Source of the DNA: a virus
Direction: 5' to 3' (one strand)
IMG/VR virus record: IMGVR_UViG_3300013233_000476
Coordinates: 1-22,792 of that record
DNA: 22,792 nucleotides
A model generated the notes under the pieces. The model did not search any database. It was not told where the DNA came from and saw nothing but the letters and a program-made list of their open reading frames with translations. The position numbers and the translations under genes were made by a program. Positions 2,423 to 19,214 of the stretch are shown piece by piece; position 1 is the first letter of the stretch, and every line of letters starts with the position of its first letter.

Positions 2423-5400
2423 ATGGCGTATCGTACGAGTGCTAGTCGTTTTGGCGGGACGTTAAGGGGTTCATCGCTTTCGGACCGTCTTCGGTCTGCT
2501 ACTGGTGGTTTTGGAGATTTAGGTTTAGCGGCGATGGGTGCGTTTGACGCGTTGCCGGAGGCGGTGCGTCATGTGATTGGTGGCGGCGGCAGCGGTTACA
2601 CGTTCGGGAAGGACTTGACGGGTGGCCCGGTTTCTGGGTTAGCGGCGGAGGTGTTGACTGATCCGGCGTTATTGGCTGGTGGCGGCTTATTGTTGGGCGG
2701 TTTGGGTGCGGCAGTAGGGAAGCGTCTTGGTACTTCGTTGGCGGAGCGTTTGGCTGGTGGTGCGGTTGGTGGTGCGTTGCGTCATGGTTTGGAGACGGTA
2801 GCGAAGGAATCGTTAGAGGGATTGGAGAGTCCAGCGGTCCGGGAGTTGGTGACTCTTGCGTTGGAGCGTGGCGACGAGGTTGGTGCGCAGAAGTTGGCTG
2901 ACACGTTCAAGTCGGGACTGTACGGTCGCTTGTCGGATTTCGAGCAGATGTCGGCTCGCGGTCCTGCTGCGAACTTTGGAGCGATTGCGAGCGGTGGTCC
3001 GGGATATGCGGAGGATGCGGCTCACCAGTTGGCGGTATCTCCTCGTGCGATCGAGCAAGCTGCGGAGAATGTCTTGCAGCGGGTGAAGAGTGGCGAGGAG
3101 ATACCTTCGTTGGCGGACGAGGTATTTTCGACTGCGCACCGCGTTGCTCCTGTGGGGATGGGCGATCCGTATTTGCATGCTTCGGACCGGTTGCCGGCGG
3201 CGAATCCGTTGGTGTCGGACACGTTGGCGGACATTACGAAGGAGCAGTCGGTGACGCCGGAAGGCGGGCGCGGTGCGTTGGGGATGCCGAAGGCTGCTCG
3301 TTTGGCGGGGAAGGGGAACTTGACGGGTCCGGGCGGAGCCGGGAAGACGTTTCAGGTTGGTCCGAATGGAGAGTTGTGGGTTCAAGACTACAAGACGGGC
3401 AAGTGGGAGTTGAAGGGTCAGGACCCGGTCTTGGCGACTTTTCCCGAGGCGGGCGGTTCTGGCGAGGAGTCGTTCAGCGACATGTTGGCCGGTCGGAATC
3501 CTGGAGAAGGTCCGGAGTCGTTGGTCGGCGGCGGTTTCGGGGGTCCGAGCCCGAGTGATCCGAACGCGACATCTGTGTTTCCAGAGCCGAACTTCACTCG
3601 TCCTTCTTCGGCTCTTGAGAGCCCATCGGGAGAGGTTCCGGACTATCTGAAAGGTTTGTCGGCGAGTCCTGCGCAGGACGTGGGTCAGGCGGTTCGCGCT
3701 CAGTCCGGTGTGACGATCGACGAGTTGCAGCGGTTGGGATTGAGCAAGGACGTAATCGAGGCGATCAAGCTGTCGATGCAATCCAGGAGCGGGCTGGATC
3801 AAGACTTGACGATGCGTGCCCTGGATTCCGTGGCGAGAGATGCACGTGCCGGTCGGTTGAATCTTGAGGGCATGGACGCATCCGACTTTGCGAAACTGGT
3901 GGACATGCGGGCGAGGATTATCGGCGTGCAAGGTGCTGCGGAGGCGGGTGCGCTTCCCGGGGTGTCTCCGGATGCGAACCTTCCGACTCAATCACTGACT
4001 CGCCATCTGACTTCGGATACACCTCCAGAGGTCATTGACGCCGCCGACTACAGTCTGGTGAACGAGGGTCTTCCGAAGCGTCCGGACGTTCCGATGTTCC
4101 AGAGCGATTACGAGGGTTCGGCGATGGCTGCTCCTCCAGATCAGCCTTTCGGCGGGAGCCCGGAGCAGTCAAAGGCGATGGAGCTGTCGGACCTTCTTCG
4201 CCGTTCCCAGCAGGGATTGTCTCCGTCCGCCGTGGAAGGACGCGTTCCGGAACTTCCTCCAGTGGAGAAGGAGCCGAGAGCGTCCTCCGGTGCGCTTCCG
4301 ACACGGAAGGACGTTCCAAAGACACCGCCGGCGAAGGAGGAGCCTGCAAAACCCCTGCCGAAGAGGACGGACGCCGAGCCGACAGGTACTTCGACAGCGA
4401 AGGCGTTGGAAGAGGGGAAGCCCGTGTCGCCTGAGAAATCGGCGGGAGCAGGCGAACTGTCCGGTGGACCGCAGAACAGTCCTCAGCGCGGAGGTTTATT
4501 GAGCAGACTTTTCGGAGGCGGAAAGGAGCCATTGAACGAGCTCGAGCAGGAGGCGGCGGCCAACAAGTTGGCTTACTACGCGGTGAACGAGTCGAGCGGG
4601 ACTCACCATACGCAGGCGTTAAAGGCCGTCACGTCTTCGATGGACCAGCAGAGAAAGTTCAAGGTTGTCGACGAGCTGACGGAAACTTTGACGAATCTTG
4701 CGAATGAGGGAACGGCAGGAGGAGCAAAGGACCCGAACCTGCTGCTTCCGGAACGGATGCGGGAGATGGCCACCAAGCTTCTGCGTGCGATTGCAGAGGG
4801 CCGTGACCCGAAACAGGCGGCGAGCGAGTTGGCGGCCGTGACGACGATCAAACCGAAGCGTGCGATCAGGGAAGCGAAAGCCGCAATCATCAGAAACTCG
4901 GACGTTATCAAGAGGGCCAGCATCTCTCCGCTTCAAATCGAGGAAGCCGTTGCGGCTGCGGAGACGGGTCGACCTGAAGGCGTGGTCGGTCCGTTTCATT
5001 CCGCCACTCCGTCGAGAGCTGTACTGGAAGGGAAGAAGACAACGCTTTCCGGGCTGTTCGAGGAGACACCGCTCGGACGGCAGTTTTCCAATCCTGCCGG
5101 ATCGGCGGACAGGGGATACCCGTTGGAGACGATCGGGCCAGTGCCGCAGGCCGGTGCGCCGAAGAAGCAGGTTCAGGTCCACAGTTCGCTGCACAAAATC
5201 GCAAACGAGTACAGAACTCTTTCTGAGCAGGAGCCGACATTGGTTGCTCGCGCGAACGAGGTGTACCAGCGTATTCGCCGGTCGCTGCCTCCGATGTCAG
5301 CCAACGCTCTGCCGGACATGGAGATCGCAAAGGCAAAGGACGTAAAGAAGGCACTTGGCAAAATCGTAGACCTAGGAGTGTTTGACCTTCCGGAGGGTGT

Positions 5401-8400
5401 CCGAACTGAGGATGTATCCGAGTTGCGTGCGCTCGCGCTCAGGCTTCGGAGACTGATGCAGATAGAGCAGGCAGGAGGAAAGAAGCTTGCCAAGCTATCA
5501 GAACGGCACGGACTACATTCACTGATTGAGGCGTCCCAGAACCGCAAGATCATTCCGACGGAAACCGGGAAGATGTTCACGGCGGAGAACCTCGGCCGGG
5601 CCTCGGAGCTGGCAGACAAGATGGAAGCTGGAAGCATCAGCGACGCAGAACTTGACGAGCTGGACTCGATCCTCGGTCGTTATGGGATGTTCGAGACCCG
5701 GCAGGCAACCACTCGGACGCCGGCTCTACCTGTTCCGCTGAGCGGTGCCGGCTCGATCTCTTCTGCGGAGAAGAAGTCGGTCCCGACCCTTGCGGAGCTG
5801 TTGATGCCGAAGTCGGCCGAGCCGCGTGAAGCGATCGCCCCTCCGGCAGTCGCGGGCGGCCCGGTTACCGCATCGGTAGACCTGATTCGCGGTTCTGTCC
5901 CGCTGTCGAGTCCCGGTCAGAACGAGCTGCTGCACGCTCCCGGAAGTCGCGAGTTTATGAAGAGGGTCAACAGCGTCATGTTGGGGCACGCGGACGCGAA
6001 AACGGCCGCGTCCGGTTTGGGGGAGAAGGCATATCAGGCGCTCGACGCGATCGAGAGATTGTCGAAGAAGCCCGCGACCTATGTCGACGGTGTCCACTTC
6101 AGGGTGGTCGAACACCCGGAGACCGGAGAACGAATGGTCGTTGCCACGACGATGGACGATTCCGGACGAGGATTCCACCCGTGGAACGTACCCAGAGGGA
6201 ACAAATACTTCCAGGACAAGTCCGCGATTCCGCCGGTCGACTCCATCCTTGCGGCATGGAGAGTGGATGACCTGACCTCCACGGCAGAGGGAAAGAGGAC
6301 GCTCGATCTGATCCGTGAAGCGATGAACGGTCAGGAGATCACCGACCGAATCACCTCGGTGACCGGTGCCGTCGGCGGGCAAAAGAAGCCTCCGAAGGGA
6401 AGCACTCTCGAAGACTTGATCCAGAGTCAACGGGAAGACATGGCGGAAGACAGCCTGCTTGGAGGTTTGGAGGTTGAGCGAGCCAGGACGGACGACACCG
6501 GCATGGACCTGGTCGACGAGGAACTCGGGCCTGGAAACGAGGAGTCGGTCAAGCGGTCGTTCTCCGAGCTGAAGCCGCAAGAGGACGAGGGCTCGATTAG
6601 GAGCACTCGCAAGATGGCCGGCGACTTCGTCAACGGTCGAGACGCCGAAGGGACCCGCAGGTTTATCGACAGGATCGAAGAGGAGATCAAGCGAGCCTCG
6701 GTTGGAGACGCCAAGGAAAGCCTGATTCGATCCAGCGGTCGGCAGGAGCAAAAAGCTCTGGCGGCGACGAAGGTTGAGCAGCAGGCGACGTCCTACTCGA
6801 TTCGCGGGAGAAACAAACGTGATCTTTACGCCGTAACTAAGACGTTCGACTCCGACGTGCACAGCGGCGTGTTCACCAAGAAGACGGATAACGCAGACGT
6901 CATACTCGACGACCTTGAAGCGTTCGTGCAGGCAAACAAGGAAACGTCGATCTCTCGAGGTTTCGGGGGTCGTGCGACGGAGACCGCATCGGCCGAGGAG
7001 GTACTCGAGCCAGGCGATGTAACACCGCTACTGGAGATGGCCAGGCAACTCCCTCTCACTGAGAAACAGGCCCGCCGCGTAGAAAAGCTGTCCAAGGCGT
7101 TCGGCACGGTCGGAGAATACGTGCATCCTTACGTCGCAGCCGCTCGCAGCGGAAGCGGAGAGGAAGTGCTGAACACGGCCAGGCAATGGGCGAAGGACCC
7201 GTCCCGCAATAAACTGGTTGCACTTGGAGAGGCACTAGACTCGTTCCATGGAGCAGTCGCAGGAGGCAAAGACACTGCGACTCGCCCTCTGGAAGATGCG
7301 TTGAAGAGTCTCTCAAAGAGAGGAGACAAGCTGGCGCAGGACGAAATGCTTGCCGGGGATTACGCGATCCGGAAGGCTCACGATGTCGTCGATAAGGCTC
7401 TCGCCGACGGGGAAATCACACGGGAACAGGCGAACGCGGCGATGGTCAGACTCCGACGACTGGAGCAGCCTTGGAAAGATGCCGTGCGCAAGAGACGGGC
7501 GTCGGTAGTTGCACAGTCTTATAGCCCAATCAAAAAGGCGGTGAAGGAAGTTGCCTCTGCTGCGACGGGCGTACTAGAGAAACTCAAAGGTTCGGAGCGA
7601 GCGGGCGCCCAGGTCGAGTCTGCACGGAAATTCCTTGGCAAGCAGATTACGTCTCACGAAAGCGCAAAAGGGAAGGCGGTTACCGCCCTGCTGCCGCCGG
7701 AAAGAGTCGACGAGCAGTTGTCTCGCATGCTCCAAGGCAAGCCGCTCACGGAAGGAGACGCCAATGCGATGCTCAAGTCGATCGAAAAGTACGATGCGGC
7801 AGTCCGCAAAGCGACAGGCGCACGGGAACCTCTGTTGTCCAAATCCCGCGACCTCCTGGATAAGCGACTATCGGTACTGTCTCAGCGGCGAGAGGATATG
7901 CTCAACATGGCTACGGCGGGTGCTCAAATCGGAGTAATCCCAGAAACAAAGTACCCGAAGAAGCCGCTGACTTTCCGAGACATGCGGGACGGCATCAGAG
8001 GTCTTCGTCTTGAGAGCACGAGTCAGCAGGCGGCTCCCAATCTCGGGTTGGAGACAGAGCGAGCTGCGGCGGCCAGAGTGAGATCCGACGTCCATAAGAA
8101 GCTCGCTTCCATTTCGGGAGCAAAGGAAGAGGTCGTGCCGAAGATGGCCCGAGACCTGGCGGAAAAGCAGCGACTTAGCCAGAAATTCCAAGCTGGCGAA
8201 AAACTTACAGAGGAAGAGAGGGCGCGAAGCAATAAGCTGTTCGGACGTATCGTAGGAAAGGGAAAGAAGCTCGCGCCGAAAACGCACAAGCTGAGCGGGC
8301 GCGATATTGTGGAGTTCGGGGCAAAGAAATCGTCTGAGCTGAGACCGGGCGAGCGTCAGGTATTCGAGACCACGAAACAGGAGATGGGAGGAAGTGGGCT

Positions 8401-8911
8401 TCCGAGGCTTTACCCCAAAGGACATGGGCGGCACCCGTTGATGAATCAGTCGGCTCCGCCGAAAGCCCTGCCGTACAAGCAAATGCTCGTACTTCCAGTG
8501 CAGCACGTTCCGGCGAACATCACTCAGGTTGTCGAGGTTCTCAACAAAGAGCTTCCGGCATACCGATTCGCCTACATGAATCGTCCAGTCACCATCCAGC
8601 AGATTGGAGGAGTTATCAAGGCCGTAGCGGAACACTCGAACATCAAGTCACTTGCAGACGTCGGAGATGCGTTTATCGCCAGCGAGATCATCCCTCAGGT
8701 TCGCAAACTTGCTCACTTGGTTGGGCCAGCAAGAGAGAGGGCGCTAGATCAAGTCGTAGCGAAAATCATCAACAAAGCCGTTGTTCCGAGTGGAATGGTA
8801 GCCGATACAGCAAATAAACTCGGGATGGCTCTTATTGGAGCGTCCTTGGGTTTCAATATAACTGGACGAACTAAAGGACGTAGGGGGCGTCGTCACGCAG
8901 TGCTTGCTTGA
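2423..8911 (+). CDS. Giant virion-associated or ejected protein candidate (2162 aa)
   Basis: AAAGGAG 6 nt before the ATG supports this start. The 2162-residue protein has no domain I can name. Residues about 81-120 are a Gly/Ala/Leu-rich hydrophobic stretch with GxxxG spacing that could insert in a membrane. Residues about 606-690 are rich in Pro, Lys and Glu and look disordered. Much of residues 700-2050 is charged and helical. The last 50 residues hold a second hydrophobic stretch and a basic tail. Giant helical proteins with Gly-rich hydrophobic parts, next to head genes, are often internal virion or ejection proteins, or multi-domain polyvalent proteins delivered with phage DNA. That role is inference. 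Leucine codons are mostly TTG/TTA up to about 3.7 kb and mainly CTG/CTC/CTT beyond about 4.2 kb, so the coding style changes inside one frame. Long antisense open frames in it are shadows. Confidence 0.85.
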   Translation: MAYRTSASRFGGTLRGSSLSDRLRSATGGFGDLGLAAMGAFDALPEAVRHVIGGGGSGYTFGKDLTGGPVSGLAAEVLTDPALLAGGGLLLGGLGAAVGKRLGTSLAERLAGGAVGGALRHGLETVAKESLEGLESPAVRELVTLALERGDEVGAQKLADTFKSGLYGRLSDFEQMSARGPAANFGAIASGGPGYAEDAAHQLAVSPRAIEQAAENVLQRVKSGEEIPSLADEVFSTAHRVAPVGMGDPYLHASDRLPAANPLVSDTLADITKEQSVTPEGGRGALGMPKAARLAGKGNLTGPGGAGKTFQVGPNGELWVQDYKTGKWELKGQDPVLATFPEAGGSGEESFSDMLAGRNPGEGPESLVGGGFGGPSPSDPNATSVFPEPNFTRPSSALESPSGEVPDYLKGLSASPAQDVGQAVRAQSGVTIDELQRLGLSKDVIEAIKLSMQSRSGLDQDLTMRALDSVARDARAGRLNLEGMDASDFAKLVDMRARIIGVQGAAEAGALPGVSPDANLPTQSLTRHLTSDTPPEVIDAADYSLVNEGLPKRPDVPMFQSDYEGSAMAAPPDQPFGGSPEQSKAMELSDLLRRSQQGLSPSAVEGRVPELPPVEKEPRASSGALPTRKDVPKTPPAKEEPAKPLPKRTDAEPTGTSTAKALEEGKPVSPEKSAGAGELSGGPQNSPQRGGLLSRLFGGGKEPLNELEQEAAANKLAYYAVNESSGTHHTQALKAVTSSMDQQRKFKVVDELTETLTNLANEGTAGGAKDPNLLLPERMREMATKLLRAIAEGRDPKQAASELAAVTTIKPKRAIREAKAAIIRNSDVIKRASISPLQIEEAVAAAETGRPEGVVGPFHSATPSRAVLEGKKTTLSGLFEETPLGRQFSNPAGSADRGYPLETIGPVPQAGAPKKQVQVHSSLHKIANEYRTLSEQEPTLVARANEVYQRIRRSLPPMSANALPDMEIAKAKDVKKALGKIVDLGVFDLPEGVRTEDVSELRALALRLRRLMQIEQAGGKKLAKLSERHGLHSLIEASQNRKIIPTETGKMFTAENLGRASELADKMEAGSISDAELDELDSILGRYGMFETRQATTRTPALPVPLSGAGSISSAEKKSVPTLAELLMPKSAEPREAIAPPAVAGGPVTASVDLIRGSVPLSSPGQNELLHAPGSREFMKRVNSVMLGHADAKTAASGLGEKAYQALDAIERLSKKPATYVDGVHFRVVEHPETGERMVVATTMDDSGRGFHPWNVPRGNKYFQDKSAIPPVDSILAAWRVDDLTSTAEGKRTLDLIREAMNGQEITDRITSVTGAVGGQKKPPKGSTLEDLIQSQREDMAEDSLLGGLEVERARTDDTGMDLVDEELGPGNEESVKRSFSELKPQEDEGSIRSTRKMAGDFVNGRDAEGTRRFIDRIEEEIKRASVGDAKESLIRSSGRQEQKALAATKVEQQATSYSIRGRNKRDLYAVTKTFDSDVHSGVFTKKTDNADVILDDLEAFVQANKETSISRGFGGRATETASAEEVLEPGDVTPLLEMARQLPLTEKQARRVEKLSKAFGTVGEYVHPYVAAARSGSGEEVLNTARQWAKDPSRNKLVALGEALDSFHGAVAGGKDTATRPLEDALKSLSKRGDKLAQDEMLAGDYAIRKAHDVVDKALADGEITREQANAAMVRLRRLEQPWKDAVRKRRASVVAQSYSPIKKAVKEVASAATGVLEKLKGSERAGAQVESARKFLGKQITSHESAKGKAVTALLPPERVDEQLSRMLQGKPLTEGDANAMLKSIEKYDAAVRKATGAREPLLSKSRDLLDKRLSVLSQRREDMLNMATAGAQIGVIPETKYPKKPLTFRDMRDGIRGLRLESTSQQAAPNLGLETERAAAARVRSDVHKKLASISGAKEEVVPKMARDLAEKQRLSQKFQAGEKLTEEERARSNKLFGRIVGKGKKLAPKTHKLSGRDIVEFGAKKSSELRPGERQVFETTKQEMGGSGLPRLYPKGHGRHPLMNQSAPPKALPYKQMLVLPVQHVPANITQVVEVLNKELPAYRFAYMNRPVTIQQIGGVIKAVAEHSNIKSLADVGDAFIASEIIPQVRKLAHLVGPARERALDQVVAKIINKAVVPSGMVADTANKLGMALIGASLGFNITGRTKGRRGRRHAVLA

Positions 8912-10214: not shown

Positions 10215-11369
10215 ATGAGCTACAAAGGTTTTAATCCAGTCGCGTTTTCTCGTAGCTCGGCTACGACTCTCGCGCATCACATCATGGAAGTGGAAGAAGC
10301 GTTCTTCCGCAATTATCAGATCGGCGCACTGCTCGAATCGAACGGGCGCGTCAACTACAACAACTCTGGTGAAGGCTTCGACTGGCCCGTCCAGTACAGG
10401 ATTCACGTCCTCGAAGGAAACACCGGAGAGACTCACCGAAACTTCGCACGGCGCAACCTGTGGAAGACGGCGAACCTCGAGTTTCGCGGCTACCAAGCCA
10501 CGGACGCAATGTACTACCGAGAGTTCCTGTCCAATCGAGGACCGGAAGGAATCGTCAAGGTGTACGACCAGTTCGCCCAACGCATCGAGACCTCAGTCAA
10601 AGAGGCGCTTGGTGTTGAATACTACGTTGATGGCAATGCCACCGGAAACGAGCAGTCGTGGCACGGAATCGAATCGTGCTTCCCGATTGGAACGACCGGT
10701 CAGACTATCGACACCACAAAGGCTGGGGCGGTTCCAAGAACGGCCAACGCTGCTGACCTCGTCTACTACCCGAACGGGACCTACGCAGGACTCAACGTCT
10801 CGCCTGGCTCCTATAGCGGTGAAAACGAGAGCGGAAAGACGTGGCCTGATGGCCTTGCCGATCCGGAGTTCGACTTTTGGTCACCAGTGATGCTCAATGC
10901 GAACACCACAAACTCTGAAGTGAAAACCGGAACAGGAACCGGATGGGCCTCCAATGCAATCGAGGCCACTCGATGGGCGTTGATTCATTGTCAACGCAAC
11001 TCGAACATCGACGGCCAGATTACCAACATCCTTTGCTCGCGAGACCGCTATCGCGAGTTCCTGAATCTGATCGACGACAAGGAGCGAATTTGGATCACGC
11101 CGGAGAACAGCCTTCGAGCGCTCGGTTTCAAAAACGTCTTTGTCTTCGACGGCGTTGAAGTCTCCTGGGAAGTCGGTGTTCCGACCGCCACGGTCTACGG
11201 CATCAACTACAACCAGATGGAGCTCAAGTCGATGGATGACACGCTCCTCCGGACGGAAGGTCCCGAGTACGACATCCATTCGCAAGCGTTTGTTGCGGTC
11301 GTGTCGACCCTGTCGAACATGAAGTTCTCTTCGCCGCGCAATTTCTTCAAGATCATCGACGGAGTCTGA
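10215..11369 (+). CDS. Major capsid protein (384 aa)
   Basis: This protein forms the icosahedral head shell. It has the size of a capsid protein (384 aa) and the expected mix: an N-terminal helix region with aromatic residues, strand-rich segments such as FDWPVQYRIHVLEG (about residues 55-68), a long helix around residues 105-137 ending in EYYVDGN, and a C-terminal strand region ending NFFKIIDGV. The fold is probably HK97-like, inferred from composition and context rather than a signature. It follows the scaffold gene by 16 bp and precedes the decoration-like gene. AGAGG lies 8 nt before the ATG. Codons are C-rich at third positions, as expected for a highly expressed gene in this module. Confidence comes mainly from the neighbours. 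Confidence 0.8.
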   Translation: MSYKGFNPVAFSRSSATTLAHHIMEVEEAFFRNYQIGALLESNGRVNYNNSGEGFDWPVQYRIHVLEGNTGETHRNFARRNLWKTANLEFRGYQATDAMYYREFLSNRGPEGIVKVYDQFAQRIETSVKEALGVEYYVDGNATGNEQSWHGIESCFPIGTTGQTIDTTKAGAVPRTANAADLVYYPNGTYAGLNVSPGSYSGENESGKTWPDGLADPEFDFWSPVMLNANTTNSEVKTGTGTGWASNAIEATRWALIHCQRNSNIDGQITNILCSRDRYREFLNLIDDKERIWITPENSLRALGFKNVFVFDGVEVSWEVGVPTATVYGINYNQMELKSMDDTLLRTEGPEYDIHSQAFVAVVSTLSNMKFSSPRNFFKIIDGV

Positions 11370-12146: not shown

Positions 12147-12761
12147 ATGGAAGACCACCCACCACTCGAGCCTCCACCTCTTCCCGGCACGGAGACCGGA
12201 GAGAAGATGTGTCACGTATGCGGAGAACAACTACCTGCAAACACGCAATACTTCGACGTCGACAACAGCCGAGACGACGGGCTGCGGTTGCAGTGCAAGG
12301 CATGCCGAGCAAAACGCGAGGATGACGAGGAACGAAAAACAATCGCGGCGAAGCTCGACGCGCTCGACAGCAATTCCGTGCGGCTGCTCACTGAGCTCGC
12401 CATGGACGGAAGCGACGTTCCACACATCGCAGAGGTGTTCCAAAAGCTGCTCGACGTGTTTGGAGGTATTTCGGGATTCGCCCAACACTTTATGGCGAAT
12501 TACCTGATGTCTAAACCAGGATCGCAAATGCGGCAACGCATGCTTCAGTCTATTATCACCCTCGGCATCAAGGTTACTGAAAGCGGCGGAGCCGAGCTTC
12601 CGCTCGAACTACTGAACGATGCCGACATCGAACGAGAGATCGTCAGACGATCGCGAAAGTTGATCTCGGTCGTAGGAGAAGACGGAGTCGCCCATGTCGT
12701 CCGAGAGGATCAGACACATCCAGAAGATGGTGAGACAAGGCCGGCCGCTGGAGACGCTTGA
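12147..12761 (+). CDS. Zinc-ribbon protein, candidate small terminase subunit (204 aa)
   Basis: The N-terminal part has four cysteines in two CxxC pairs: C22-x2-C25 and C50-x2-C53, with P30, F36 and the DGL at 44-46 between them. This CxxC-P-F-DGL-CxxC pattern is the zinc ribbon seen in many small phage proteins and in front of HNH nucleases; no HNH motif follows here. Residues about 62-160 are helical and the tail is acidic. The gene lies directly upstream of the large terminase and overlaps it by 68 bp, the usual place for the small subunit, which recognises viral DNA and starts packaging. Small subunits vary greatly in sequence, so the call is positional. It could instead be a DNA-binding regulator. 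The start is set by GGGAG at 12135-12139. Confidence 0.6.
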   Translation: MEDHPPLEPPPLPGTETGEKMCHVCGEQLPANTQYFDVDNSRDDGLRLQCKACRAKREDDEERKTIAAKLDALDSNSVRLLTELAMDGSDVPHIAEVFQKLLDVFGGISGFAQHFMANYLMSKPGSQMRQRMLQSIITLGIKVTESGGAELPLELLNDADIEREIVRRSRKLISVVGEDGVAHVVREDQTHPEDGETRPAAGDA

Positions 12762-15627
12762 CGCCTTTACCGACATGACGGCCTTTGAGAAAAAGGAGTA
12801 TCTCAAACTTCTGCAAGAGGCCGCCAATCGTCGTGTTGAAGCACTCAAGTTATACCGGCCGCTTCCGTTTCAGCAACGCTTCCATGAGTGTGCAAACAAG
12901 GAGTGCATCATAGTAAAAGGGAATCGCGCCGGCGGGGCACAGCCCTTGTATGGGCAAGTCCTGACCCCGGACGGATTCGTCCCGATGGGGAGCCTTTCTG
13001 TCGGCAGTACCGTTATCTCGGGCGACGGACTGCCGTGCACGGTCACTCACATCCACGAGCGAGGATGGATGGCCGTGTACCGAGTCACGTTCGACGATCG
13101 CGCGACGGCCGTGTGTACCGGCGATCATTTGTGGAAGTGCAAGATCAAGAAGCACGAGAAGTTCCCCTCTCACGACTACTACAAACCGGACGCGTTTACC
13201 GTATTGCCGCTGGACGACATCATCGAGTTCGACGGCTTTACGCCCAGACCGTCGAAGAGGCCGATCATTCCGTGTAGCCCCGTCCATTTTGTCGGCGGCA
13301 ATCTCCCGATGGACCCCTACACACTCGGAGTTATTCTCGGAGACGGCAGCATATCGTGCGACAGCGTGTCTTTCACGACGGAAGACAGGGAGATCGCGGA
13401 GAACGTGGAAGAACTCTGCACTATCGGAAAGGTGACGTATAGAAAGGAGGTGGAAGGCTCGAAGGCCAGAGCGTACGGGCTCGTCGCTCATCACAACTGC
13501 ACAACAGGAAAGCCCAGCCCTGTGAAAACCGCACTAAAGGAACTTGGGCTGATGGGGACGAGGTCGGTCGAGAAGTTCATCCCGGAAGAGTATATGCGAT
13601 CGTCTATTGCGGATAGACTTCAGTTGCTTCGCGGCCTCATGGACACGGACGGGACAGCGGACAAAAAAGGCCACTGTTACTTCTACACCAACTCTCCGAT
13701 GCTCGCCAACAATGTCGTCGAATTGGTCCGGTCTCTCGGTGGAAAATCGTACATCCGATGGAAGGAGACTTCAATTCGTCAGACTCGTCTCGACTTCCGA
13801 AAGAGAAGAAAGCTTTGCGACAAACCTCTCCCGAGAAAGAAAGTGATGAACATGGCGGTGGTCAGGGTGGACCTGACTATCGCAAGCCCTTTCATGCTGG
13901 AGAGAAAGACGAGACGTTGGCAAGGACGAAAGCGGCTCTCTCCATACTTCGGTAGATACATCGAGACAATCGAGCCGGCCGGGAACGCGATATGCCGTTG
14001 TATCACGGTAGACTCTCCCGACGGCACGTACATAATGGAAAACTATATCGTAACCCACAACTCGATCGCCGGATTTGCAGAGGACGCTAGAGCGGCCACC
14101 GCGCAAGACCCGTTTAAGAAATACCCGGAACGCGACGGAGTTGTTCTCTGTCTGGGATACGGAGAAAAACACGTCGGTCGCGTCATTCATAAACTGCTTT
14201 TTCGCGCAGGGTCGTTTCGCATCATCAGAGACCGAGCGACCGGAGAGTGGCGAGTCTACCGTGCTTGGCCAAAGGACGAAATCGTACTTGGACATCCAGG
14301 AGACGAGGACCGGGAGGCGGAAGCGAAACCCGCACCACCGATGATTCCACCTAGGATGATCGACGGATTCTCTTGGGAAAAGAAAAGCGAACACGTCTTT
14401 TCCATCGCAAGGCTCACGACCGGCTGGGAAATCCACGCGTGCAACTCGGCCGGCGATCCGTCACAAGCCCAAGGTTTCGACGTCAATCTTTATCACATCG
14501 ACGAGGACACCGCGACTCCGGGCTGGTACGAAGAGGCAATCGGTCGTACCGCAATCCCCAAAGGTCTCATTCGATGGACGGCACTGCCCCACGCGAGGAA
14601 CGACGACATCATGGGGATGATCGCTCGCGCCGAGGATGAGGAGCAGCAGGGCATACCGGAAAAGGAACGCACGACGATCTGCCTCAGGGCGAGCGTCTTC
14701 GATAATCCGTTCTATCCCGCGAAATCACGAGAGGCCAACATTAAAATTTGGGCGGCCCAAGGGGAGGACGTTCTCCGGAAACGCATCTACGGCGAGGTCG
14801 TTCAGGACACGATCTTGATGTACCCAGAGTTTAACAAGTACGTCCACTGCGCGCAATCCGACAAGGAAAACGCTTCTTCAATCCAGGCCCTTCTGGCCGA
14901 GTCGCACGGAGCTCCTCCGGACGACTGGTGTATAGACATGATCGTCGATCCGGGCCACACCGTCTGCGCCGTATTGTTCGTAGCGACCCCGCCTCCCATG
15001 ATGGGAGATTACAAGGTCTGCTTCGACGAGCTGTACTTGAGACTGTGCGACGCCAAGATGTTCGGCGAGGCAGTCGAGAGAAAAGCTGCTCAAATGTATA
15101 TTCAGAGATTTATCATCGACATGCACGGCGGCATGCTTCGCGAAATCGGTTCCGGTCAAACTCCAGTGGAGAGATATACAGACGAGCTGAAAATGAGGGG
15201 AATATCCTGCGTGGAGACGGGAGCCTACTTTATCCCAGGGTCAGATAAGATTAAGAGCCGCGAGGAGGCTCTGCGAGAGTGGCTGCGCGTCCGGAGGGAC
15301 GGGACCCCAACTCTATACGTAGATCACCTCAGATGCCCGAACACCGTGCGAGAGCTGTCGACGTTCAAAAAGAGACGCGTTCGCATGGGATTGCAGTGGA
15401 TCGTGTCGGACGACGGAGACCGGCGCGCAAACACTCACACCGTGGAGTGCTTGGAGTACGCTGCGGCCCATGGACTTCAATACGTCATTCCCAGGGCGAA
15501 GCCGAAGGCCATGTCTTACGCAAAACGTGCTATCATGGCACGCCAGGCACGGGCTGCTCAACGCGCCGCTCGGACGAGTGGGCAGTCCAAGAGTTACATT
15601 ACCCTCGGACCTACCGGAGAATCTTAA
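12694..15627 (+). CDS. terL: Phage terminase large subunit, intein-containing precursor (977 aa)
   Basis: This is the ATP-driven motor and nuclease that packages DNA through the portal. The precursor is 977 aa; removing the intein (residues 82-456) leaves 602 aa, a usual size. After splicing, residues 75-81 join S457 to give KGNRAGGS, a deviant Walker A motif. Walker B is LYHIDE with D603 and E604. The C-terminal nuclease domain shows acidic candidates D752 (IVDPGHT), D809 (IIDMHGG) and E918/E921 (HTVECLEYA). In the spliced Walker A the usual lysine position is Gly81 and lysine sits at the first position (K75), as in lambda gpA KSARVGYS. GGAG lies 6 nt before the ATG, which is inside the upstream gene (68-bp overlap), suggesting translational coupling. 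The stop overlaps the next start as TAATG. Packaging activity must wait for intein splicing. Confidence 0.93.
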   Translation: MSSERIRHIQKMVRQGRPLETLDAFTDMTAFEKKEYLKLLQEAANRRVEALKLYRPLPFQQRFHECANKECIIVKGNRAGGAQPLYGQVLTPDGFVPMGSLSVGSTVISGDGLPCTVTHIHERGWMAVYRVTFDDRATAVCTGDHLWKCKIKKHEKFPSHDYYKPDAFTVLPLDDIIEFDGFTPRPSKRPIIPCSPVHFVGGNLPMDPYTLGVILGDGSISCDSVSFTTEDREIAENVEELCTIGKVTYRKEVEGSKARAYGLVAHHNCTTGKPSPVKTALKELGLMGTRSVEKFIPEEYMRSSIADRLQLLRGLMDTDGTADKKGHCYFYTNSPMLANNVVELVRSLGGKSYIRWKETSIRQTRLDFRKRRKLCDKPLPRKKVMNMAVVRVDLTIASPFMLERKTRRWQGRKRLSPYFGRYIETIEPAGNAICRCITVDSPDGTYIMENYIVTHNSIAGFAEDARAATAQDPFKKYPERDGVVLCLGYGEKHVGRVIHKLLFRAGSFRIIRDRATGEWRVYRAWPKDEIVLGHPGDEDREAEAKPAPPMIPPRMIDGFSWEKKSEHVFSIARLTTGWEIHACNSAGDPSQAQGFDVNLYHIDEDTATPGWYEEAIGRTAIPKGLIRWTALPHARNDDIMGMIARAEDEEQQGIPEKERTTICLRASVFDNPFYPAKSREANIKIWAAQGEDVLRKRIYGEVVQDTILMYPEFNKYVHCAQSDKENASSIQALLAESHGAPPDDWCIDMIVDPGHTVCAVLFVATPPPMMGDYKVCFDELYLRLCDAKMFGEAVERKAAQMYIQRFIIDMHGGMLREIGSGQTPVERYTDELKMRGISCVETGAYFIPGSDKIKSREEALREWLRVRRDGTPTLYVDHLRCPNTVRELSTFKKRRVRMGLQWIVSDDGDRRANTHTVECLEYAAAHGLQYVIPRAKPKAMSYAKRAIMARQARAAQRAARTSGQSKSYITLGPTGES
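12937..14061 (+). mobile_element. Class 3 intein with LAGLIDADG homing endonuclease (375 aa)
   Basis: An in-frame protein intron lies inside the terminase Walker A motif, between G81 and S457 of the precursor. Intein residue 1 is Ala, so the usual N-terminal Cys/Ser acyl shift is impossible. The three class 3 marker residues are present: W66 in block B (CTGDHLW, with T61 and H64), C355 in block F (CITVDSPDGTY) and T373 in block G (VTHN, then Ser). In class 3 inteins the block F cysteine attacks first, before transfer to the +1 residue. Between the splicing blocks are two LAGLIDADG motifs, LGVILGDGS (about 130-138) and LLRGLMDTDG (230-239), which would cut intein-free alleles and promote copying of the element. 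Both motifs keep their acidic residue (D136 and D236 or D238) and the frame is open, so it looks active. Confidence 0.92.
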
Positions 15628-16322
15628 TGAGTACTGCATTTGCACAGGACCACATTGGCCCAAAAGAGCTGACACCGGAAATGATCGAGCGAATCCAGAA
15701 ATACCAGATGCCGCAGCCGCATCTTGGGGCACCGGTGATTTACTATCAGACTGGGGTAAAGGACCGCAGGAGAGCCCAGGTCGGATACGTCCTACAGGCC
15801 GGGCACAGGAATGTAACGCTCATGCTTCCCAATGGCCAGCGACAAGACGCGGTTCGACACATTGAAGACCCAAAATTGGCATTAAACGCAGACCAGAGAG
15901 AGTCAGGTGCGTGGGACTTTACCGACGAACACAAGCGCACAATCTCTGATGCCCATGCAATGAAAGCGAGAATCAGCGATCTCGAGGACAGGTTTTCCGC
16001 GTTGACCAAGCGACTATCTGACCTTGAGAGAGTGGTTCACAATGTCCCACGTGACCCGAGAGGAAGAAAAAAGGGGCAGAAAGACAAGAAGCCTCGCAGC
16101 GGTTCTCCGGCCACAGGAAAATCCGCCGCGAGGATGTGGCTGGCCAATCGAATGATGGAGACGACTGGGGCGGAAAGAAAAGAAATCTTCCGTCTCTCGT
16201 ATGATGCTCTCTTTAGCCGAGCTCAGGCTGAGGGTGTTGTCAGTCAGAACATCACCAGCGAGCAATACCTTGCCGAGTTTCGCCGACAGGCTGAGTCTAA
16301 ACTCTCGGCACAGAATGAATGA
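15627..16322 (+). CDS. Hypothetical protein between terminase and portal (231 aa)
   Basis: The protein is not recognised. Residues 1-95 include a strand-rich part (RRAQVGYVLQAGHRNVTLML, about 49-68) that may be a small beta domain. Residues about 100-140 form a predicted coiled coil. Residues 141-165 are a very basic Arg/Lys/Gly/Ser linker. The C-terminus is helical. The start is the ATG in TAATG overlapping the terminase stop, with GGAG 7 nt upstream. The frame stays open back to 15279, but that part lies inside the terminase gene and is rejected. The basic linker suggests nucleic-acid binding, and the place between terminase and portal suggests a packaging or head role. Both are inference. 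Confidence 0.75.
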   Translation: MSTAFAQDHIGPKELTPEMIERIQKYQMPQPHLGAPVIYYQTGVKDRRRAQVGYVLQAGHRNVTLMLPNGQRQDAVRHIEDPKLALNADQRESGAWDFTDEHKRTISDAHAMKARISDLEDRFSALTKRLSDLERVVHNVPRDPRGRKKGQKDKKPRSGSPATGKSAARMWLANRMMETTGAERKEIFRLSYDALFSRAQAEGVVSQNITSEQYLAEFRRQAESKLSAQNE

Positions 16323-18553
16323 GAACTAACATGGGCGACAATAACTTCGTGCAGGGCACGGCAGTTACAGACGTTGACGCGATCGGCAACCCGATCAAAC
16401 CGATTGTCACCGCATGGCTGGCCAAAATAGAGTTGGCTGCCAAAGTAAAGTGGCAGGAGTTCGGTCAGTACGCCGCCGAGGCAACGAAGTTTTTCGACGG
16501 CCCGCACAACTGGATGTGGAATACGACATATTCTGAAGGCACAGGAGGCTATCTGTCCAAAGACAATGACGCCGTGATGCCTATGTTCCGCATGACGGTA
16601 AATCGCGTCTTTGAAGCGGTCGCACTATACGGTCCGGCGTTGTACCACCGCAATCCACAGATCGAAGTGACGCCGGTACGCTTCCCAGACATTCCACCTG
16701 AGGCCCTAGGAATCAACCCTAATGACCCAAGCCAGGTGCAGGCGTACCAGCAGATGATCGCTCCTGATGCTGCCGCTAGAGGCATGCGAGACGCTCTCGC
16801 GAAAGTCAAGCAGCATTACGTGAACTGGGTCCAGAGGGAAACAGACAAGCAGACCCATGCCCGAATGGCAATAACGGAGGCCATTATCAAGGGCATGGGG
16901 CTGCTTCAAACAGAGATGATCTCGCCTCCGGGCTCCCAGATCAGCATGCCCAGATCGCGATTTATCTCCGTAGACGACCTCGTTGTAGACCCGGATGCGA
17001 TGTACTGGGACGAGGTCCAGTGGATTGCAATTCGACATATCGCACCGACCAATGTAGTCGAAGAGAGATTCAACCTGAAGGACGGCAGACTAAAGAAGTA
17101 TGGGAACCTCAAGAGCGCCGGGACTCAAGCGGAGCTCAAAGGACAGGGAAATCGAAACAAGCGTCGGAACCAGTCAGTATCAGGGACGACCTTCGACTTG
17201 ATCGAATACTGGGAGGTCTACTCGAGAAACGGATTCGGAGACCGTCTGAAAATATCTAAGGTTCAGGATGAACAGCTCAAGATTAAGCTAGATTTTCGCA
17301 GCTTTGGACCAAATACTCGCATCGTCGTGGCGAAGGGCGTTCCGTTCCCCCTTAATCTGCCGAGCGAGGTCTTACTGCAAGAGGACGATCAGAAGGTTTT
17401 CCAAAGGGTGCAGTGGCCAATTCCGTTTTGGATGGACGACAAATGGCCGGTTACGCCTCTCTGGTTCTACTCGAAACCCAGAAGCGTTTGGCCGATTTCG
17501 ATTATCAAACCGGCGATTGGAGAGCTCCGGTTCATCAACTGGTGCATGTCGTTCCTTGCAGACAAGGTAGCGGCTGCGAGCACGACGTACGTCGTGGCCG
17601 CGAAGGAAGCGGCGAATGAGATAAAGCGGCAACTCACGACCGGAAAGACGCCGTACAAGCTCATCGAGATAAGTCAGATGACCGGCAGGAGCGTAAAGGA
17701 CCTGGTCAACTTCCTCGATGCACCAAACTTCAACGCGGACATCTGGAAGATGGTCGCCGAGGTTATGCAGCTTATCGACAAGAGGACCGGTCTGACCGAC
17801 TTGCTCTACGGACTCACCAACAAGCAAATTCGCAGTGCAACCGAAGCCGAGGTAAGAGATGATAGAACGAACATTCGCCCGGACGACATGGCTGAATCCG
17901 TTGAGCGATGGATGGCAACTGTCGCTCAAAAAGAAATGGCGACAATGTGCTGGCTCGCAAAGCCTGAGGACATAGAGCCGGTAGTTGGAAAACTGGCCAC
18001 CAGAATCGTGATGCAATACCTTGATTCAACGCCCTTTGATTATGTCGTCAGAGATTTTAGCTACATCGTAGCCGCCGGTTCAGCCCGCAAACTAAACAAA
18101 GCCGGGAAGGCGAGAGCGCTAAATGACCTTGGGCAGGTTATCGTCCCGATGCTTCAATCGTTCGCTCAAATGGGAGTAGTCGATCCATGGAACGCTTATG
18201 TGGAGGCAATAGGTGATGCTCTGGATGTTCCGGTTGACAAATTTGTGCTCGACCCCGAGATGTTCCAGCAGCACGTTCAACAACAACAGGAAGCAGAGCA
18301 GGGCGGAGGAGAGGGCGGCGATAGCGGCATGGATGAACAGATGCAGGCCCAGCTCAAACAACTCGATCTACAAGTCAAACAGATACAGGCCGAGATGCAG
18401 AAGCAAAAGGACCAGCTTGACATTCAGTTGAAACGAATGGAATTAGATGGCCGGTCCGAAGACCTGAGGGCAAAAAAGCAGGTCTTGCAGACACAGTTGT
18501 CCCTGCTAAAGAAGCGTGCGCGTGTTATGGGTGGAGCGAATGGAAGCAATTAG
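16319..18553 (+). CDS. Portal protein (744 aa)
   Basis: The portal is the dodecameric ring at one head vertex that the terminase docks on and DNA passes through. The protein is 744 aa, near the large P22-like and T7-like portals. Supporting features are an early helical region with FRMTVNRVFEAVALYGPALY (about residues 83-102), a central aromatic segment, and the helix-rich TGLTDLLYG...RSATEAEVRDD region (about residues 489-520), a typical stem/wing pattern of large portals. The last 100 residues are a long Gln/Glu/Lys coiled coil, like the C-terminal barrel helices of such portals. The start overlaps the previous stop (ATGA). A second in-frame ATG at 16331 is about as likely, since neither has a strong ribosome-binding site. 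No single motif is diagnostic; size, composition and place after terminase support the call. Confidence 0.85.
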   Translation: MRTNMGDNNFVQGTAVTDVDAIGNPIKPIVTAWLAKIELAAKVKWQEFGQYAAEATKFFDGPHNWMWNTTYSEGTGGYLSKDNDAVMPMFRMTVNRVFEAVALYGPALYHRNPQIEVTPVRFPDIPPEALGINPNDPSQVQAYQQMIAPDAAARGMRDALAKVKQHYVNWVQRETDKQTHARMAITEAIIKGMGLLQTEMISPPGSQISMPRSRFISVDDLVVDPDAMYWDEVQWIAIRHIAPTNVVEERFNLKDGRLKKYGNLKSAGTQAELKGQGNRNKRRNQSVSGTTFDLIEYWEVYSRNGFGDRLKISKVQDEQLKIKLDFRSFGPNTRIVVAKGVPFPLNLPSEVLLQEDDQKVFQRVQWPIPFWMDDKWPVTPLWFYSKPRSVWPISIIKPAIGELRFINWCMSFLADKVAAASTTYVVAAKEAANEIKRQLTTGKTPYKLIEISQMTGRSVKDLVNFLDAPNFNADIWKMVAEVMQLIDKRTGLTDLLYGLTNKQIRSATEAEVRDDRTNIRPDDMAESVERWMATVAQKEMATMCWLAKPEDIEPVVGKLATRIVMQYLDSTPFDYVVRDFSYIVAAGSARKLNKAGKARALNDLGQVIVPMLQSFAQMGVVDPWNAYVEAIGDALDVPVDKFVLDPEMFQQHVQQQQEAEQGGGEGGDSGMDEQMQAQLKQLDLQVKQIQAEMQKQKDQLDIQLKRMELDGRSEDLRAKKQVLQTQLSLLKKRARVMGGANGSN

Positions 18554-19214
18554 CAGGCGAGATTGCAGGAAGGCCCTCCTGGGGCTCACTCACATGCTCG
18601 CGAGGTCCGTGCGTGGCACGCCGTCGCTGTCGGATAATACAATCGACGACATTCAAGTAGACGACTACATAGAGAGGTACATTAGGCTGCACGGGAAACG
18701 GGCGGCATACGTGGCCACATCGGTCCGTCCTGGCTTTAAGAGACTCGTTGACGTAGGATGCGGAATCGCTATTACGTCGATTATGGTAGCGGCACTGCAC
18801 CCCAGTTCACAGATAGAAGCGTTTGACAAGAACCAAGACATGGTTGATGCGAGTCGCGTGCTGATCGAGATGTCGAAGCTGGATAACATCAATGTCTACA
18901 AGGCTGATGCGGGGCTGGTGCGATACCTCGACACCGTCTGTGAACGAATGTTGCTATGTCATGTATTGCACACGCTACCAGACCCGGTTGCGTTGCAAGT
19001 CTGCCGGCGAATGATCGGCGCTGTTGCTGCCAGGGGGCAGGTGATTGTCTCACACCCTCTAGGAGACTCAGTCTCTCCGGAGAGGATTGTATCCAGGGAG
19101 AGATCGAAAATCGAACACTACTGCTCGCCCTGCCCTGTGACTTGGACCGGCAAGGCATTTACGGAAAGCGTAATAGGAAAGGTTCGTGTGACAGATGAAC
19201 GTCCGGTGTGGTAG
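18540..19214 (+). CDS. Class I SAM-dependent methyltransferase (224 aa)
   Basis: This is a Rossmann-fold methyltransferase. Motif I is LVDVGCGIA (residues 69-77, with D71, G73 and G75) and forms the SAM-binding loop. IEAFD (92-96) gives the acidic residue D96 that binds the SAM ribose. NVYKADA and the strand MLLCHVLHTLPDP follow at the motif III-IV positions. No DPPY/NPPY motif is seen, so an adenine-N6 DNA methyltransferase is not supported; a small-molecule, protein or RNA target is possible. The ATG at 18540 overlaps the portal stop and has GGAG close upstream (3 nt, short); a GTG at 18516 is an alternative. It overlaps the next gene by 20 bp. Its place after the portal gene is unusual, and it may be cargo or modify a virion or host target. 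Confidence 0.75.
   Translation: MEAISRRDCRKALLGLTHMLARSVRGTPSLSDNTIDDIQVDDYIERYIRLHGKRAAYVATSVRPGFKRLVDVGCGIAITSIMVAALHPSSQIEAFDKNQDMVDASRVLIEMSKLDNINVYKADAGLVRYLDTVCERMLLCHVLHTLPDPVALQVCRRMIGAVAARGQVIVSHPLGDSVSPERIVSRERSKIEHYCSPCPVTWTGKAFTESVIGKVRVTDERPVW

Follow-up and report, generated by a model that had tools for sequence, protein, structure and literature searches.

The DNA analyzed here is a 22,792-nucleotide stretch of a viral record (IMG/VR IMGVR_UViG_3300013233_000476), which we call the window. It very probably encodes a class 3 intein of full length that includes a LAGLIDADG homing endonuclease and interrupts the large terminase (TerL) of a tailed phage between Walker A positions 7 and 8. 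Directly visible in the sequence are the splice residues (WCT triplet, catalytic His and Asn, and Ser+1), both endonuclease motifs, and the exact insertion site, along with a mobile distribution among relatives. The Walker A motif that holds the intein is deviant, a feature missed by a previous reading of this DNA from sequence only. Its Lys is at position 1, and position 7 is Gly (KGNRAGG/S; the slash marks the insertion site).

Results

Layout of the terminase gene

The terminase open reading frame (ORF) occupies positions 12694 to 15627 on the plus strand and encodes 977 aa, and the reading frame is unbroken across the intein. The N-extein (12694 to 12936, plus strand) is 81 aa long and ends in IIVKGNRAGG. 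It aligns without gaps at the junction to intein-free relatives, as in the alignment of query residues 1 to 602 with residues 29 to 623 of the relative L063 (52% identity). Walker A positions 1 to 7, KGNRAGG, lie at 12916 to 12936 (plus strand), with Lys1 at 12916 to 12918 and Gly7 at 12934 to 12936. They were assigned by comparison with intein-free relatives reading KGN[RQ]xGG/[ST] and with canonical relatives reading AGNQVGK/S and GGNRSGK/S. The intein, 375 aa with its LAGLIDADG homing endonuclease domain, follows at 12937 to 14061 (plus strand), and its residues 1 to 375 match exactly the bases proposed for it in the sequence-only reading. The C-extein (521 aa; 14062 to 15624, plus strand) begins with Ser+1 (14062 to 14064). 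This residue is Walker A position 8 and is residue 457 of the ORF, as that reading had it. The G+C content is 55% in the intein and 54 to 57% in the exteins, so nothing suggests that the intein arrived very recently from a different background. The window allele is known from a single contig, and no second copy of it was found.

Upstream of both the terminase and the portal gene is a major head protein-like ORF (window 10215 to 11369; phrog_9953, E = 4e-12), and a portal-like ORF (16319 to 18553; phrog_156, E = 1.3e-17) comes after the terminase. The region adjoining the portal gene (18516 to 19214) has a weak methyltransferase-like match (phrog_4752, E = 2e-5). For the 2162-aa ORF at 2423 to 8911, neither Pfam nor PHROG gave a significant family match.

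The insert is a class 3 intein with a homing endonuclease

The insert has the published class 3 signature (PMC7891396, PMC7664689). There is no Cys or Ser at position 1. Trp66 (13132 to 13134, plus strand) is at block position B:12, with His64 two residues before it. Cys355 (13999 to 14001, plus strand), the predicted initiating nucleophile, is at F:4. Thr373 (G:5), His374 (G:6), and Asn375 (G:7) form the C-terminal end (14053 to 14061, plus strand), directly before Ser+1. We aligned 43 hand-picked related inteins and found that H64, W66, D238, C355, T373, H374, and N375 were invariant. The block F His of many relatives is Gly363 in the window intein, a position that is His in 18 of the 43 rows. 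Among intein matches collected from IMG/VR, 88 of 95 had the complete WCT triplet at the aligned positions.

The best matches among PDB sequences were also inteins, namely, the class 3 MchDnaB1 intein and a gp41-1 intein onto which a WCT motif had been grafted. An AlphaFold2 model of the intein (mean pLDDT, 90.4) had PI-SceI as its best fold match (E = 2.7e-17), and the splicing part of the model matched the class 3 DnaB inteins 6rix and 6bs8. Chance is excluded as an explanation. The W66/C355/T373 set named in the sequence-only reading was thus borne out by translation and by the aligned relatives, and its class 3 assignment was upheld by sequence, structure prediction, and placement within class 3 in the tree.

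Both LAGLIDADG motifs are kept, as had been noted, and each has its acidic residue. Motif 1, LGVILGDG (13324 to 13347, plus strand), contains D136, a position that is Asp in 41 of the 43 aligned inteins and Asn in 2. Motif 2, LLRGLMDTDG (13624 to 13653, plus strand), contains the invariant D238. The Pfam matches to LAGLIDADG_3 (E = 2.6e-11), which supports motif 1, and to Hom_end (E = 1.5e-4) both pass the curated cut-offs, and the fold is PI-SceI-like.

The host protein is a large terminase

Whole-ORF searches returned PHROG terminase matches, and their best-scoring stretches lay mainly on intein residues. The C-extein alone had no significant profile match. Therefore, the identity of the host needed separate proof, and we rejected the whole-ORF matches as evidence for it and re-established it through relatives and fold. 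Searching PDB sequences with a C-extein profile gave nothing useful, and a tblastn search of 50,697 phage records with the C-extein found no match. However, a scan of IMG/VR with the C-extein found 46 relatives, and a profile search of the same database found 370. Six of eight aligned members matched phrog_2, the terminase large subunit (best E = 1.3e-9), and intein-free members matched it at E = 1.9e-12 and 1.1e-13.

We used the intein-free relative L063 as a stand-in for the joined exteins in the fold test. Its model (mean pLDDT, 84.5) matched the D6E large terminase (E = 4.5e-14), T4 gp17 (E = 1.1e-11), and HK97 TerL (E = 1.7e-10), as well as several terminase ATPase and nuclease domains. 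Alignments with relatives showed that the acidic residues of both domains are kept in the window exteins. The Walker B DED (HIDED; 14500 to 14508, plus strand) is invariant in two alignments. The nuclease residues in VDPGHT (14947), DELY (15025), and IDMHGG (15118), spanning 14947 to 15120 (plus strand), were assigned from alignment conservation and from the fold matches to terminase nuclease domains. The modeled fold of a relative and the profile matches of relatives thus identify the host as a large terminase, with a predicted ATPase and RNase H-like nuclease fold.

Empty sites define the insertion point

Comparison with intein-free terminase alleles had been proposed as a check on the intein, and such alleles were found. 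The sites of L063 (KGNRVGG/S, continuing as SLGGFVEDARA), L229 and L227 (both KGNRAGG/S), and L224 (KANRAGG/S) have no insert, and these four proteins are 52 to 57% identical to the window exteins; there were others. Because their alignments are uninterrupted, the insertion point is fixed at single-residue precision and separates Walker A positions 7 and 8. This boundary gives the intein an N-terminal Ala, and together with the TerL fold it places the insertion in the terminase Walker A motif; the sequence-only reading was right on both points. The position is the "classic" P-loop intein site described for the mycobacteriophage TerL1-a inteins (PMC5050341).

Some relatives of the window terminase use a second site in this P-loop. 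The inteins there are class 1-like, with Cys1 and a His-Asn end, and occur in L023, L047 to L049, L115, L117, and L131 (GGNR/C...HN/SGKS). The terminases of L117, with such an intein, and L114, without one, are nearly identical, which indicates a recent gain or loss.

Related inteins occupy the same site in scattered hosts

Four related class 3 inteins were found at this TerL site. Besides the window intein, they are those of L098 (KPNQVGG/P...THN/S), L102 (KGNRTGA/A...THN/T), and L249/L250 (KGNRVGG/P...THN/S), the last of which came from two separate samples. Residue 1 is Pro, not Ala, in two of the four (L098 and L249). In a careful intein tree, a smaller replacement for an 84-row quick tree, the four formed one clade (support, 100/99) whose sister group comprised the inteins of L174, L176, and L201. 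The L174 host matched the terminase family phrog_2 (E = 2.6e-9) and also phrog_31467; the L176 and L201 hosts matched phrog_31467.

The four host terminases were scattered among intein-free relatives, requiring at least four changes on the host tree, and a single clade for the four hosts was rejected (AU test, P = 1e-5). One intein clade in scattered hosts is what would be expected of an intein that is horizontally mobile or repeatedly lost, and the counts fit either gain or loss.

The Walker A lysine has moved in one TerL clade

The window motif departs from the canonical GxxxxGK[ST], in that position 7 is Gly in the window and Gly or Ala in the same-site relatives. As in lambda-like motifs, an upstream Lys stands in place of Lys7; Lys1 is present in the window and in every intein-free Gly7 relative whose site could be read. 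Among distinct terminases of this family with a readable intein-free site, 19 had Lys1 and Gly7, 83 had Gly1 or Ala1 with Lys7, and none had both lysines; these counts leave aside one misaligned distant row. The Lys1/Gly7 rows and their intein-bearing kin formed one TerL clade of 12 rows in the first host tree (100/97) and of 22 rows in an enlarged tree (99/95). On these alignments and trees, Lys1/Gly7 is a trait of one TerL clade and not damage. We also considered whether the intein caused the loss of the P-loop Lys and rejected this, because Lys1/Gly7 is common to the intein-free relatives.

The residue before the window intein is therefore Gly, in contrast to the usual P-loop Lys. Essentially all of the P-loop class 3 inteins that we collected have Lys at -1 (76 matches ending in GK or AK). 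The exceptions are the terminase inteins of the window, L098, and L249 (Gly) and of L102 (Ala).

Lambda gpA likewise lacks the expected Walker A lysine and has an upstream one, a contrast drawn with HK97 (PMC9410871). In HK97 TerL, the upstream Lys is essential (PMC9410871). The deviant Walker A of lambda-type terminases was described by Mitchell and Rao in 2004, as cited in PMC5445408. By analogy, the window Lys1 may be functionally equivalent to the lambda-type upstream Lys. Since the spliced Walker A has no Lys7, ATPase activity would rest on this residue. A literature search of limited scope found no paper describing an intein within a deviant Walker A motif.

Discussion

Proposed splicing, activation, and spread

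We predict that the window intein splices through a branched intermediate on its F-block Cys. By the class 3 mechanism (PMC7891396, PMC7664689), C355 would attack the Gly81-Ala1 bond to give a branched thioester, and Ser+1 would then take over the N-extein. Asn375 would cyclize, and the exteins would be joined as KGNRAGG-SIAG. The joined sequence KGNRAGGSIAG is of the type present intact in intein-free relatives. The spliced product would be an active packaging ATPase that uses Walker A Lys1, much as the lambda-type deviant terminases use their upstream Lys. Before splicing, the P-loop is split by 375 residues, so the precursor should not hydrolyze ATP. The endonuclease would cut intein-free alleles at the P-loop codons, and the intein would spread by homing. 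The patchy distribution of the intein fits such mobility, and we predict cleavage of the intein-free allele.

Alternative explanations

The Ala at residue 1 could mean that the intein belongs to class 2, or that it belongs to class 1 and its start has been misplaced. Class 2 inteins have Ala there, and a Cys or Ser start could in principle be concealed by a wrong boundary. However, the intein-free alleles put the boundary after Gly7, which makes residue 1 Ala, the full WCT triplet is present, and all of the nearest inteins are WCT inteins. We consider this explanation scarcely credible. The Gly found where the P-loop Lys is expected could instead point to a decayed gene, either an intein that no longer splices or a terminase that died through the loss of its Walker A Lys. 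Yet all 977 codons are open, and the gene retains its Walker B, nuclease, and splice residues. Moreover, Lys1 and Gly7 are shared with intein-free relatives that are still long, conserved TerLs, as expected of a clade trait. Decay is therefore improbable.

The sequence-only reading had also suggested that splicing gates packaging. An insert in the ATP-binding loop would indeed hold the unspliced motor inactive, and regulated splicing has been reported for a mycobacterial DnaB intein (PMC6195587). Nevertheless, at least 18 intein-free relatives in the TerL clade of the window need no switch, the P-loop is the common insertion site of such inteins in unrelated ATPases, and the sequence gives no indication of conditional splicing. 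With the precursor ATPase presumed off, splicing would be a prerequisite for the motor, as with any P-loop intein, and this is not evidence of regulation. A conditional-splicing switch is thus very unlikely, and we favor a class 3 intein that splices and is mobile.

A possible specialization on lysine-relocated terminases

A class 3 intein lineage may have specialized on terminases in which the P-loop lysine now stands at position 1, moving among them at the usual site even though the preceding codon has ceased to specify Lys; we regard the arguments for and against this as evenly balanced. No canonical Lys7 terminase of the window TerL family in our sample had an intein at the window site. 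The sample was gathered by similarity to the window, so this absence is suggestive only. If the specialization is true, the P-loop niche of these inteins is independent of the invariant lysine, and the lysine shift came before the intein spread. The usual explanation for P-loop inteins is that the GK[ST] codons are extremely conserved, and here the site is occupied in a clade that has lost the Lys. Because intein-free relatives are available, one can test what the -1 residue and the target codons contribute. The findings also point to a TerL family of uncultivated phages with a relocated P-loop lysine.

Comparison with known systems

Class 3 inteins are common in phages, and their rarity was overstated when they were called a minority of known inteins. 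A published survey listed 1701 by 2020, 82.5% of them with LAGLIDADG motifs (PMC7891396), and one IMG/VR scan gave at least 579 confirmed relatives. Some unusual forms were also seen. The P-loop-type inteins of L197 (308 to 1420) and L203 (3213 to 4256) combine Cys1 with a complete WCT triplet and may be intermediate between class 1 and class 3. An ORF at 3131 of L009 apparently has two class 3 inteins, with intein-like segments at residues 293 to 702 and 744 to 1045.

Both the class 3 mechanism and the P-loop location are already known, as is the occurrence of class 3 inteins at canonical TerL P-loops. Phage ATPases and helicases, such as Mycobacterium phage Colt gp179 (980 aa), have class 3 P-loop inteins that resemble the window intein in their WCT triplet, LAGLIDADG motifs, and 7/8 site. 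Like it, they mostly have Ala1 and THN before Ser or Thr+1, but they are preceded by Lys (GK/A), whereas the window intein is preceded by Gly. The Methanosarcina virus MetMV terminase intein (RRSGK/A...THN/T) and those of L174 and L218 from IMG/VR are class 3 inteins at the same P-loop position of a terminase. However, they have the canonical Lys at -1, and the MetMV intein falls outside the clade of the window, L098, L102, and L249. The TerL1-a inteins also share the 7/8 site and, unlike the window intein, follow the invariant Lys (PMC5050341). TerL1-c and TerL1-e inteins, grouped with the class 3 DnaB-b, occupy other TerL sites (PMC5050341).

The MchDnaB1 and Mycobacterium smegmatis DnaB class 3 inteins (6rix, 6bs8) share the splicing fold and WCT triplet. 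Their structures are of small splicing domains that lack the endonuclease, and their host is DnaB, whereas the window intein has an endonuclease and a TerL host. As described in PMC5445408 and PMC9410871, the lambda-type Walker A resembles that of the window in lacking the canonical Lys and having an upstream one; lambda gpA is not a close relative of the window TerL and is not described in those papers as having an intein. The class 3 intein of the window is itself ordinary, and the uncommon element is its pairing with a Walker A motif whose lysine has been relocated.
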